Source: Eggerthellales bacterium
Lineage (GTDB): Bacteria > Actinomycetota > Coriobacteriia > Coriobacteriales > Eggerthellaceae
DNA: 64,000 nucleotides
Assembly: GCA_029225085.1 (NCBI GenBank)
Contig: JAQXVU010000012.1
Coordinates: 1 to 64,000, forward strand
Direction: 5' to 3'
In this document: positions 5,005-23,064 of the stretch, in pieces
Layout: every line of letters starts with the position of its first letter
Numbering within the stretch: the stretch's first letter is position 1
Notes under the pieces: model-generated
The model's database searches: none
The model's input: only the letters and a program-made list of their open reading frames with translations
What the model was told of the DNA's origin: nothing
Position numbers and translations under genes: made by a program

Positions 5005-5875
5005 TACGATCACCGCCCAACTCGTAGATAAAGATCTCTTCCAGAGAAAGTGGAAGAACGTTCACGAACATGGGGTTGCTCTGGGCCAGGATGGCCTGGG
5101 CCTTCTCAGCGCTTGCACGAACCACCAGGGTGAACAGGCGGCCTTCCTGCACGCGGTTCACCACGTCGAGCTCGGCGGGAGCCTCGAACTTGTCGTCCTC
5201 GAAGGCGACCTGCACCTTCACGAAGTTCTCCTGCAGCTCGGACAGGGAACGCTCCAGGCGCATCTGGCCAGCATCCATGATGCCCACGTGGTCGCAGACA
5301 TCGGTGAGCTCGCGCAGATTGTGGGAGGAGGACACCACCGTCATGCCACGATTGGCAACGTCGTCCATGACCAGGCCCCAAATAGTGTGACGCGCGGCAG
5401 GGTCAAGGCCGTCTACCGGCTCGTCGAGGAGCAACACGTCTGGGCGGCGAGACAAGGCCAACCAGAAGAAGGCCTGCTTCTGCATGCCCTTGCTGAGGGA
5501 GCGCACCTGGCGATTGGTTTCCAAGTTGAAATAAGGGCGCAGCTCCTCGAAACGCAGGGAGCTAAAATCGGGGAAGACCACGCCGTACAGGTTCTTCATG
5601 CCCTCGACAGTCGCGATCTCCGAGAAATATAGATCGCTGGGGATAGAGGCGATGCGACCCTTAACGGCAACGTTCTCGTACACTTCCCCGCCGCAAACGC
5701 TTACAGTGCCGGCGTCTGCTCGCATAGCGCCGGAAATGACCTTCAGCGCCGTGGTCTTACCTGCGCCATTGGGTCCCACCAGGCCATATACGGAGCCGGG
5801 CAGCACATGCATGTCGAAGTTCTGCAGTGCCTGCACGGGCCCGAACGCCTTGCAGACCTGAGATACCTTAATCAT
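4994..5875 (-). CDS. ABC transporter ATP-binding protein (exporter type)
   Basis: 293 residues. Walker A GPNGAGKTT is at about 35-43, the signature in SLSKGMQKQ at about 130, Walker B LLLDEP at about 154-159, and the switch His in SSSHNLRE at about 186. The C-terminal 80 residues form an accessory domain as in CcmA/EcsA-like exporters. It overlaps the permease at its 3' end and the GntR regulator at its 5' end (8 bp), so the three genes are co-translated. It powers efflux through the permease; cargo unknown. Confidence 0.93.
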   Translation of the reverse strand: MIKVSQVCKAFGPVQALQNFDMHVLPGSVYGLVGPNGAGKTTALKVISGAMRADAGTVSVCGGEVYENVAVKGRIASIPSDLYFSEIATVEGMKNLYGVVFPDFSSLRFEELRPYFNLETNRQVRSLSKGMQKQAFFWLALSRRPDVLLLDEPVDGLDPAARHTIWGLVMDDVANRGMTVVSSSHNLRELTDVCDHVGIMDAGQMRLERSLSELQENFVKVQVAFEDDKFEAPAELDVVNRVQEGRLFTLVVRASAEKAQAILAQSNPMFVNVLPLSLEEIFIYELGGDRNEE

Positions 5876-6233
5876 CAGATTTCCCTTCCTTCAAACGGTT
5901 CGAGAGCTCCTCAGCGGTACAACCCAAATCGATGAGCTGCTGAGAAACCTCGTCGAACTGGCCAAGAAGCTCTTGCTTGCGGGAATCCGCCGCATCGACG
6001 GAACCCGAGACGAAACTGCCCTTTCCCGGCATGGAGTAGATGAAGCCCTTAGCTTCGAGCTCGCGATAGGCCCTCTGAATGGTATTGGGGTTGATGGCCA
6101 ATTGCGATGCCAGGCTCCTGACGCTGGGGAGCTTATCGTCCTCGCGCATGATTCCCGCGGCGATGAGCTTCATGAAGTTGTCCTCGATCTGCTCATACAA
6201 AGGGCGAGAATCCTGCGGATTGATGCTGATCAC
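5868..6233 (-). CDS. GntR-family regulator, YtrA subfamily
   Basis: 121 residues from a GTG start at 6233, chosen because AAAGGAGGTGA lies 4-5 nt upstream. An upstream in-frame ATG at 6269 has no such site. The winged helix-turn-helix (about residues 8-76) carries the GntR hallmark LPSVRSLASQ and NPNTIQRAYRELEAKG. The short, helical C-terminus without a ligand-binding domain is typical of the YtrA subfamily, which controls ABC exporters encoded in the same operon. The next two genes are exactly that. A promoter with an overlapping palindrome at 6458-6508 suggests autoregulation. Confidence 0.92.
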   Translation of the reverse strand: MISINPQDSRPLYEQIEDNFMKLIAAGIMREDDKLPSVRSLASQLAINPNTIQRAYRELEAKGFIYSMPGKGSFVSGSVDAADSRKQELLGQFDEVSQQLIDLGCTAEELSNRLKEGKSDD

Positions 6234-8269: not shown

Positions 8270-8610
8270 GGCACTTCCCTTCCCGGTTTCCTACCGAGTC
8301 ATCGCTTCGCGTCCTCTTTCAACGAAGCTCATCCGTCAATCTTAAGTCGCTACAAGAATACCCGCCAAACCATGGTTTGGTAACTAATTTCTCTGCTTTT
8401 TCATGGTCAGTTTGCTCAGTTTTTACAAACCTGCCACGCACAAACGCAACTGCCACGGTAACGGTTTAAAAGATATGGAAGAAGTGGAAGGGGGCGCACT
8501 GCGGGAACCGCGCGGCGCGACCCACACGGCGGCGCGGCGCGTGCCGCACGTAGCATCGCGCACGGGTCGCAGACGGCAAACGAGAGTCGCGACGCGAGCC
8601 GCCCGCAACC
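8270..8610. other. Gene-free interval between pyk and ackA
   Basis: The left part is the pyk promoter region with the 8365-8380 palindrome. The right part (about 8480-8600) is GC-rich with repeated GCGCGRC-like stretches and no credible gene. One GTGGAAG heptamer is at 8483. Confidence 0.6.
8365..8380 (-). promoter_or_regulatory. Perfect 16-bp palindrome upstream of pyk
   Basis: CCAAACCATGGTTTGG reads identically on both strands. On the minus strand it starts 3 bp after a possible -10 (TAGTTA), with CTGACC about 18 bp further upstream as a weak -35. The position suggests an operator controlling pyk; the regulator is not identifiable. Confidence 0.6.
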
Positions 8611-9822
8611 CTATCGGAGCTGGGACACCAGCGCGTCGGTCTCGCGGGCGATGCGCATCTCCTCGTCGGTGGTGACCACGCAGATCTTAATGGGCGAGTC
8701 GTCAATGCTGATGATGCGGTTCATGCCAATGGCACCTTCCACCTGATTGCGCTCCTTATCGAGGATCATGCCCATGTGGGCCAGCCCCGCGAAGATCCGC
8801 TCACGCAGCTCCGCGCTGTTCTCGCCAATGCCCGCCGTCATGACCACCGCATCGGTCCTGGTCATAGCTGCATAGAAGGAGCCGATGGCCTTCTGCACCT
8901 TGTACACGTACATGTCTATGGCAAGGCCCGCCGCCTCGTCACCGGCGTCGGCTGCCTGCAGAACGTCCCGCATGTCGCTGATGCCGCTGATGCCCAGGAC
9001 GCCGGATTCCTTGTTCAGGATCTCGTCCATCTCGTCGAAGGTCAGGCCCTCGCGACGCATGATGTAGGTCACGATGGCGGGGTCGATAGAGCCGGAGCGG
9101 GTGCCCATCATCAGGCCCTCTAGCGGAGTGAACCCCATGGTGGTATCGATGCTCTTGCCGTGGTTCACCGCGGTGATAGAACCGCCGTTGCCAAGGTGAC
9201 ACGTGATAAGGCCCAGGTCGCGCAGGGGGCGCCCCAGCAGATTAGCCGCCTGCTGCGCCGCGTAGCGATGGCTGGTTCCGTGAGCGCCGTAGCGACGGAT
9301 GCTGTACTTCTCGTAGTAGCGCATGGGCAGCGGATACATGTAGGCCTTCGGCGGCATGGTGGTGTGGAAGGCAGTATCGAAAACAGCCACCTGGGGCGTG
9401 TCGGGCAGCAGCTGCTGAAGGTGGCGGATGCAGGCATCTGCCGGCGGGTTGTGCAACGGAGCCAGCTCCTCGCACTTCAGCAGGTTCTCGAAGGCCTCCT
9501 TGTCGATGAGGGTGGCCTTGCTGAAGTACTCACCGCCAGCGACCACGCGGTTTCCGATGGCATCGATCTGGGACAAGCCGCTGATAGGAGACTCGGGATC
9601 ATCGACCAGGACCTCCAGAAGCTTTTCGAGGCATTGCTCGATAGAAAAGCCGCCCACCTTGAAGCGCATCTTCTGGAATGTCGGCGCGAAGGACACGTTC
9701 ATGAAGGCGTCGTCCTCCCCCACCTTTTCAGCCAGGCAGCGCATGAGCGAGACTTTGCCGTCCGTCTCTATGAGCTGGCACTTCAGTGAGGAACTTCCCG
9801 CGTTTACTACCAGGACACGCAT
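8611..9822 (-). CDS. ackA: Acetate kinase
   Basis: 403 residues, full length. Interconverts acetyl phosphate + ADP and acetate + ATP, normally paired with phosphotransacetylase, which is not in this window. The ASKHA signatures are visible: VVNAGSSSLK at the N-terminus, the catalytic region DTAFHTTMP (about 146-154) and YGAHGTSHRY (about 176), HLGNGGS (about 206), and GTRSGSIDP (about 240). ATG at 9822 preceded by CAAGGAGG. It is probably the last step of fermentative ATP production with pyk. Confidence 0.97.
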   Translation of the reverse strand: MRVLVVNAGSSSLKCQLIETDGKVSLMRCLAEKVGEDDAFMNVSFAPTFQKMRFKVGGFSIEQCLEKLLEVLVDDPESPISGLSQIDAIGNRVVAGGEYFSKATLIDKEAFENLLKCEELAPLHNPPADACIRHLQQLLPDTPQVAVFDTAFHTTMPPKAYMYPLPMRYYEKYSIRRYGAHGTSHRYAAQQAANLLGRPLRDLGLITCHLGNGGSITAVNHGKSIDTTMGFTPLEGLMMGTRSGSIDPAIVTYIMRREGLTFDEMDEILNKESGVLGISGISDMRDVLQAADAGDEAAGLAIDMYVYKVQKAIGSFYAAMTRTDAVVMTAGIGENSAELRERIFAGLAHMGMILDKERNQVEGAIGMNRIISIDDSPIKICVVTTDEEMRIARETDALVSQLR

Positions 9823-21311: not shown

Positions 21312-21457
21312 GCTGGGGATTCAGCCAGGCCAGCGCCAGCTGACCAAGCGCTGCGATATCGGCGCAGACCGACCAAGCGCGGCCAAGCCGGCAAGGCTGG
21401 CAAGGCCAGCACCAAGCCGGCAAGCGCCAGCGCAAAAACCCACGCAGCATGCAAACC

Positions 21458-21499
21458 ACCTCCCATTTCCCGAACAGGGGAATGGGAGGTTTTGTTTTG
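21458..21499 (+). terminator. Intrinsic terminator after htpG
   Basis: ACCTCCCATTTCCC pairs with GGGGAATGGGAGGT (one mismatch) around a 5-nt loop, followed by TTTTGTTTT. It lies about 150 bp past the htpG stop. Confidence 0.88.
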
Positions 21500-22530
21500 C
21501 CTGAAGCAGGAGTAAATAAGGCAAGGTTTTTGGCATAATCGCGCCAAAATGGACGCATATAGATAACGTCCCCTAGAACACCAAGGGACCGCGGGCTGAA
21601 CTAGGTGGGCTAAGCCCAGATTGGTTCTCAAAGTGGCCGCGAATCACCTGCGCCTTCACCTCGACGAGTCAGACAAAACAACGAATCTTCGATCGGAGAA
21701 ACCCAGTGAAAGCGGGACTGCAGCGACCTCGGATACAGGGCCTCCTACCTGGTGGGCGACATCGCCCCGGGCATTGTGGCTCTCATGGCCCTCATCTTCG
21801 TCATCGCCCTCGCTTGCTCTAGGAAGCGAGATGCTGAAGTTAGGTACGGGAGCCAGAAGGCCGAAGTTCGCTCTGGGAAGCGAGATGCTGGGATGCGCTC
21901 CGGGAAGTGGGAAACTGGGATGCGCTCCGGAAACCGGGAGACCAAGCCCGTCGGATCCCACGGCAGGCACTCCGCCCCGAAAAGACGGCGGCGATGAGGG
22001 CGGATAAACGTCCGAACGGATAAACGCCCGTGCAGCGCCCGTGCAGCTTTTTTGGCCTCAAAAAACAGAAACGGCCTCTCAGTGCAGGAGTTGGTAATGG
22101 GGCAGAACCCCAAAGTGGACTATACCCAGAGTCCTGTCGCGCATGAGGATGGTCACCGCATACTCAATGTGGGTCTAAATCAGGACTCTATCCCGACAAC
22201 CTGATTCACCGACCAGTCAATTTCACAATGCAGACCTCACCACGCCCTCAGGAGAGATCCGATCTTCTGCACTGAGCGGCCCATTCTGCAAAATGACCAG
22301 ATTTTTTTGGAATAAGTTCTGCACTGAGGCCCCGATTCTGCATCCCGGCGCCCATCGGCAGTTAGCGCCACGCAAACGAGCATCCCGGCGCCCATCGGCA
22401 GTTAGCGCCACGCAAACGAGCACGACCGGTCACAAACGGGTACAAGATAGCCTCACCCCAGCACGTCTTCCGCCATAGAAGATTCAAGCACACGTTTTGT
22501 CCGCCAACCCCCATTTCGCTGTCAATCCAG
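21500..22530. other. Gene-free, repeat-rich stretch between htpG and acpP (left part)
   Basis: No convincing gene was found on either strand. At 21752-21997 a GTG-started 81-codon frame begins with a hydrophobic stretch (GIVALMALIFVIALAC) and then repeats RSGK-x-E/D-x-GMR-like units. It has no ribosome-binding site and the repetition is at DNA level (GGGAAGCGAGATGCTG twice near 21830 and 21886), so I do not call it. Two copies of TTCTGCACTGAG followed by ATTCTGCA occur near 22264 and 22317. I looked for tmRNA, RNase P RNA and SRP RNA core motifs and saw none. Confidence 0.5.
22341..22420. repeat. Perfect 40-bp tandem duplication
   Basis: The 40 bp at 22341-22380 (begins CATCCCGGCGCCCATCGGCA) is repeated without a change at 22381-22420. 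Identity of both copies implies a recent duplication. It is non-coding as far as can be seen. Confidence 0.95.
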
Positions 22531-22533
22531 ACA

Positions 22534-22566
22534 GAAGTCCCCGCCCAAATGGACGGGGACTTCTTT
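22534..22566 (+). terminator. Isolated intrinsic terminator in the gene-free stretch
   Basis: GAAGTCCCCG and CGGGGACTTC form a perfect 10-bp stem around a 10-nt loop, followed by TTTGTT on the plus strand. No gene is recognised immediately upstream, so it may end an unrecognised small RNA, or simply shield the fab operon from readthrough. Confidence 0.7.
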
Positions 22567-22653
22567 GTTACTTGCGTAATAGGCTCCCACGAAACGCAGA
22601 TCTCCGAGCGCCCATGGCCCACGCCCCGCACTGCAAGGATTTTCAGGAGTTTA

Positions 22654-22864
22654 TGGTCCCAATGGGCATTTCGTCTGATTTGCACAACCCAAAAAGCAAG
22701 CACAAATCACGTTTGGGACCATAATCCCATCACAAATCGCAAACGGGACCAGGCAAAACAGCACAAATCGCATTTCGGACCACAAACGCCAATTAATCCC
22801 CGCGCGCAACAGCAGAAATCGAAAACGGGACCAAATAAGCCATCACAAATCGCGTTTCGGACCA
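22654..22864. repeat. Phased array of about 22-bp repeats upstream of the fab operon
   Basis: Five units of the form KCASAAATCrm...GGACCA start at 22700, 22730, 22761, 22812 and 22843. The ends (CACAAATC and GGGACCA/CGGACCA) are constant and the six central bases vary (ACGTTT, GCAAAC, GCATTT, GAAAAC, GCGTTT). Spacings are 30, 31, 51 and 31 bp, so units sit on the same face of the helix. An inverted, longer copy lies at 22654-22685. There is no cas gene, and spacers of 8-29 bp are too short and irregular for CRISPR. Confidence 0.85.
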
Positions 22865-22960
22865 CGCTCCCATCACGGGTGCCCCCTCTTCCACCTCTTC
22901 ATAACTTTTCGCTATTTCGTGGAGCACATGTGAAGGCCCTGCGGTTTCGAAAAAGGGCTA

Positions 22961-22989
22961 TTGCATCCTAAAAAAGGTTCACTTATTGT
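22961..22989 (+). promoter_or_regulatory. Promoter of the fatty acid synthesis operon
   Basis: TTGCAT (22961-22966), 17-bp spacer, TATTGT (22984-22989). It is followed immediately by a palindromic operator and lies about 75 bp upstream of acpP. It would drive acpP through the MarR gene at 33002. Confidence 0.7.
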
Positions 22990-23007
22990 ACTAAATCGCA
23001 TTTAGTA
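22989..23007 (+). promoter_or_regulatory. Operator of the fatty acid operon (FabT-like site)
   Basis: TACTAAATCGCATTTAGTA is a perfect 8-bp inverted repeat with a 3-nt centre. It touches the -10 box and covers the start site. A related half-site TAAATGCGA follows at 23031-23039. The AT-rich palindrome size suits a MarR dimer, and a MarR-family gene ends the same operon; the pairing is an inference. Confidence 0.8.
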
Positions 23008-23064
23008 AAAAACTTTTAAATAAATGCGACACAAGCAATGCAAGGAACCGAAAAGGAGAAACTC

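Follow-up and report, generated by a model that had tools for sequence, protein, structure and literature searches.

The window analysed here, a stretch of 64,000 nucleotides from an Eggerthellales bacterium, contains between htpG and the fatty acid operon (acpP, accB, accC, accDA and fab genes) an intergenic region that is unusually long (1.7 kb, 21312-23037), has no recognisable gene and holds several degenerate repeats. Within it we found a 40-bp sequence duplicated exactly in tandem (22340-22419), a terminator-like hairpin (22533-22564) and the array of short repeats that is the subject of this work. The features of the array are the following:

22633..22806, minus strand: imperfect palindromic core, with outer arms at ca. 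22633-22683 and 22761-22806 (covariance model R2, 194.6 bits; BLAST to C62, see below)
22654..22685, minus strand: degenerate inverted unit, half-site displaced by one helical turn (TGGTCCC..GCATTTCGTCTGATTTGC)
22700..22721, plus strand: direct unit 1, GCACAAATCACGTTTGGGACCA
22730..22751, plus strand: direct unit 2, TCACAAATCGCAAACGGGACCA
22761..22782, plus strand: direct unit 3, GCACAAATCGCATTTCGGACCA, the other arm of the palindrome, which pairs with the inverted unit
22812..22833, plus strand: direct unit 4, GCAGAAATCGAAAACGGGACCA, outside the palindrome
22843..22864, plus strand: direct unit 5, TCACAAATCGCGTTTCGGACCA, outside the palindrome

The sequence-only reading of this DNA had described five direct units of 22 bp with constant ends, and all of them were confirmed at their positions. 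They follow the pattern CACAAATC-N7-GGACCA, starting at 22701, 22731, 22762, 22813 and 22844 (the unit at 22813 reads CAGAAATC), with start-to-start distances of 30, 31, 51 and 31 bp. The 14 fixed bases gave four exact matches, and a fifth with a single mismatch, against ca. 0.0006 exact ones expected in 64 kb. The centre of the unit, originally taken as variable, does differ from one unit to another but is not free: a G or A and two unspecified positions are followed by an A/T tract (TTT or AAA/AAC) and then by G or C. In a set of 17 units, TTT or an AAA-type tract almost always occupies the three positions that precede the last G/C, as though an A/T tract were needed in one strand orientation or the other. 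An inverted copy was likewise said to stand in front of the direct units, and there is one, although it is degenerate (matrix score of 7 vs. 27-33) and has its GATTTG half displaced outwards by 10 bp relative to a normal unit. The same one-turn (ten-base) duplication, GATTTCGTCTGATTT, is seen in the C62 copies. This inverted copy does lie at 22654, previously given as the start of the element, but the conserved stretch begins ahead of it, at ca. 22633-22637. We considered also a CRISPR array, and rejected it: the linkers measure 8-29 bp and are partly shared between arrays, and none of the adjoining genes that we tested is a cas gene.

The finding is larger than it first appeared, as the array belongs to a dispersed palindromic intergenic element that is not local to the fatty acid operon. 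Exactly two more clusters of the unit were detected in the genome, C20 and C62, making three arrays in all (the window array is C12). Both are homologous to the one in the window, with 80% identity over 162 bp for C62 (by BLAST) and 67% over 246 bp for C20, and the covariance model R2 placed the counterparts of the core (window 22633-22806) at C62:6946-7118 and C20:4964-5126. Read in the same sense, the units of C62 follow each other in steps of 30, 31, 51 and 41 bp behind a degenerate inverted copy, and those of C20, also with an inverted copy in front, are separated by 41, 51, 30, 41 and 41 bp. The arrays therefore differ from each other by whole helical turns, with 31 bp becoming 41 and the distance from the inverted to the first direct unit going from 46 to 56. 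Eight intervals fit a single helical period with a resultant of 0.975 (0 of 20,000 random sets were as good), in a test that was post hoc and that treats as independent intervals that are less than fully so, the arrays being homologous. Persistence of the phase in other copies had been named beforehand as the support to look for, and both further arrays keep to 30, 31, 41 and 51 bp. With these same spacings the reading frame is not maintained, which rules out a repeated peptide encoded by the units, the outcome that would have spoken against a site array.

The place of the window array could suggest a link with fatty acid synthesis, as an upstream regulatory array for the acpP-accBC-accDA-fab genes. 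The array ends only 200 bp upstream of the likely start of acpP (23065). In addition, just upstream of acpP and near its likely promoter there is a perfect, operator-like palindrome (TACTAAATCGCATTTAGTA, 22989-23007) whose core, AAATCGCATTT, has as its only other occurrence in the window unit 3 of the array (22765), with ca. 0.01 expected. This palindrome could be the operator of a regulator of fatty acid synthesis, to be taken as a lead only. The sister arrays tell a different story. C20 has on one side an ABC transporter gene and on the other, encoded on the opposite strand, a 109-aa ORF and then secDF; C62 lies between a gene similar to those of amidophosphoribosyltransferases and one for a MocR-type regulator. 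The flanking genes are convergent at both, and the array sits between their 3′ ends, away from promoters, when an operator array would be expected upstream of the regulated genes at every copy. Two of the three copies being located between convergent genes of unrelated function, regulation of the fatty acid operon cannot explain the family of arrays, and we regard it as improbable for this one. We take the position in front of the operon to be incidental. Neither in this genome nor in the relatives described below (genus g65) was a functional theme shared by the flanking genes tested.

The element was also searched for beyond this genome. A model of the unit built on sequence only retrieved no arrays from 137 genomes of the family, and DNA BLAST against 138 family genomes gave, outside the genome itself, just short chance matches. 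A model of the palindromic core had one match outside its own genome among the 137, in G083 (E = 3e-4, arms TGGTTGAGATTGCGACTTTTGCACC). Through the unit of G083 we reached G150 and G142, which represent two species of g65, another genus of the family, and contain many arrays of TGnTCnAGATTGCGRSTYTTGCACC. Compared without gaps, the window unit in the same sense (TGGTCCCAAATGCGATTTGTGC) and the g65 unit match at 14 of 22 positions (column-shuffle p = 0.02), which is suggestive of a relationship, not conclusive, and leaves it moderately supported. Palindromic pairs of ca. 141-163 bp with similar arms were found as well in G063, from the same family, and G219, from another one; the inverted outer arms occur in two copies of ca. 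142 bp in G083, one of 141 bp in G063 and three of ca. 162 bp in G219. A combined model of the unit detected a handful of carriers among 397 genomes of the order. Its matches in G056 were discarded, since they belong to a different repeat, a dispersed element (L160, L170, L174, L178) that has one arm of the type GGCTCGAATGCGAGTTCTGCAGCCGC and, ca. 60-85 nt away, another, GCGGCGAAGCCTGTTTGAGCAGGC; at L178 two copies of it lie in tandem, 119 bp apart. A long hairpin of G332 (L163), GATAAGGCTCGAAATCGCATTTTCAGCGATTTCGAGCCTTATC, contains the AAATCGCATTT core as well, and one more copy, a partial one, comes after it. A loose pattern of the core run over 17 genomes was uninformative, given the high background. 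The exact pattern gave 14 single, unrelated matches in 84,980 GTDB species genomes, which we take as chance. Viral contigs had no match to the window unit or to two phased g65 units, and nine single matches to one g65 unit, consistent with chance. The few searches of the literature that we carried out did not turn up any account of elements like these in the bacteria concerned.

The geometry of the g65 elements could be studied in a set of 22 elements with 131 units from the two species (a reversed-matrix control gave 0 matches vs. 84). It is rigid. All 44 pairs of divergent neighbours are spaced by 27 bp, and same-direction steps are 30 or 31 bp in 37 of 43, the remainder being one of 28 bp and five of 62/63 bp, that is, with a skipped unit. 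The centre measures 99 bp in 16 of the 22 elements, 46 in four and 83/84 in two. Within the 67-nt centres GACCtGGGnAAACg stands at a constant offset in 16/16, and yet 31 of the 67 positions have no majority base and are just 29% identical, near chance. Hence length has been kept even though the sequence is saturated. The window array departs from this layout: it has neither divergent pairs at 27 bp nor a centre of 99 bp, and its steps of 41 and 51 bp are absent in g65. Nor is the g65 geometry absolutely fixed, as at two loci of L135 the centres are of 84 or 83 bp vs. 99 in their orthologues, a difference of 15-16 bp that is not a whole turn. The two L135 elements of G150 (5646-5970 and 8563-8919), inverted, 81% identical and 3 kb apart, share the 83/84-bp centre, and their G142 orthologues have that of 99 bp, a pattern suggestive of gene conversion, or of copying on a local scale, from element to element.

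Elements are shared by G142 and G150 at four orthologous loci. At one of them the element is 80% identical and gapless while the flanks are 54-71% identical with many gaps; at another a core of 185 bp is gapless. These comparisons bear on another explanation, that the arrays are neutral relics of tandem duplication. Duplication does take place, to judge from a recent, exact one of 41 bp in C20 and from g65 direct neighbours being slightly more alike than re-paired ones. A relic, however, would hardly retain its length where its sequence is saturated, or stay free of gaps between flanks that accumulate them, so that this explanation is already disfavoured and appears to us decidedly improbable.

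The palindrome itself, common to all three arrays, is formed by the inverted copy and the first three direct units and spans ca. 174 bp, with the inverted copy and unit 3, plus their outer flanks, as arms. One rival reading is that of a structured RNA with the minus strand as its source, and structured RNA had been named beside protein binding when the spacing was first described. The minus-strand folding energies of the three cores are indeed below those of shuffled sequences (z of -4.8, -3.3 and -2.9, i.e., in the range of -3 to -5), but inverted binding sites fold by construction. Real RNA helices should display compensatory changes between paired arms, and the 22 g65 elements gave no evidence of them: for divergent, inner and outer nested pairs alike, arms taken from different elements match at least as well as those of the same element. 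The three copies of our genome have double changes at 6 of 48 pairs, with an unfavourable net covariation term, and no Rfam family except tRNAs scored above threshold. The RNA hairpin was dropped on these grounds, and we consider a structured RNA highly improbable. As the arms do not covary, what is constrained is each unit in its double-stranded form, together with the spacing of the units, and this is the mark that a protein assembly would be expected to leave.

As for placement in g65, with genes called by a simple codon-usage method, the neighbours of the elements were convergent in 14 of 21 cases, co-directional in seven and divergent in none, against a convergent baseline of 17-22% in the same sequence (p between 5e-7 and 2e-5). 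The flanking genes tested were ordinary chromosomal genes. Two elements fell within 160 kb of G150 sampled regardless of matches, which suggests ca. 30 elements per genome.

Dispersed palindromic copies at intergenic sites, with a patchy set of carriers, inverted outer arms in all of them and no coding capacity, as in a MITE, call to mind a mobile element. The closest published design is BrickBuilt, a non-coding MITE of Porphyromonas gingivalis that is dispersed over intergenic sites, with short units between inverted ends and 19 copies in one strain (PMC4596501). The element described here resembles it in these respects. However, the 23-nt repeats of BrickBuilt abut without spacers, and it has empty sites and target duplications (PMC4596501), whereas our units are separated, phased in 10-bp steps and partly inverted, and lie mostly between convergent genes in g65, with no empty site seen and no target-site duplication visible by eye at three copies. 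REP, BIME and REPIN sequences are extragenic palindromic mosaics between convergent or co-directional genes (PMC3733652, PMC3116915). The setting is the same here, but by inspection the aligned units have no evident GTAG or CGTC tag beside a palindrome, single units are not hairpins, and the spacing is rigid and helical. The RAYT/Y1 transposase domain (PF01797, Y1_Tnp) is present in G142 and G138, with a partial match in G083, but absent from the main carriers, G150 and the genome under study (G000). Moreover, no autonomous copy with the same ends appeared in our own genome, the family or the phage, plasmid and viral searches, of limited depth, and the searches of phage, plasmid and viral-contig collections returned no copy of the element. 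Together with the permanence of elements at orthologous loci in two species, this makes an element that is simply mobile rather unlikely.

There are then two tendencies to reconcile, as the orthologous retention leans to a host function and the patchy carriers lean to a mobile origin. In our opinion the whole is best explained, with somewhat better than even probability, by a phased array of protein sites. Each unit of ca. 22 bp would be a putative double-stranded binding site for one sequence-specific protein, and since adjacent units, at 30/31, 41 and 51 bp, are separated by three, four or five turns of the helix, the bound molecules would align on one face of the DNA and could build an unbroken nucleoprotein array whose core is palindromic. 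The window array would be one of three copies of such an element, which may have begun as a miniature mobile element and later been held in place. This explanation draws on the copies, their spacings, the palindrome, the convergent setting of two copies and the rigid layout and orthologous retention of the g65 elements. On the other hand, a candidate binding protein was not found, and the match between the window and g65 units is just p = 0.02. Binding on one helical face had been suggested from the window array, and the phase kept by the two sister arrays and the 30/31-bp steps of g65 support it; the units are very probably sites of this kind. We infer that a protein binds the array and that one protein family may serve both genera. 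Several sites on one face of the helix, direct and inverted, are typical of multi-site nucleoprotein targets such as plasmid iterons, the ends of Tn7 and Mu or the DnaA-box arrays of oriC. The elements share with these targets the several sites of ca. 22 bp, but they have no adjoining replication or transposition gene, and their copies are scattered over the chromosome.

A more far-reaching version, which we advance tentatively, is that of an uncharacterised chromosomal nucleoprotein system of the order, with one protein family and phased palindromic arrays of fixed geometry between convergent genes (ca. 30 in G150, three here) that would act as an element of chromosome structure or a transcription boundary. 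The patchy distribution of the carriers would be odd for a housekeeping system that organises the chromosome. The usual view of dispersed intergenic repeats is that they are debris of mobile elements. Here old copies that have drifted to saturation still preserve exact distances, a sign of selection on protein-DNA geometry. The sites at which a binding protein could be tested are already mapped, and such a protein, if found, would define a transposition system or a factor of chromosome organisation, new in either case, in this little-studied order.
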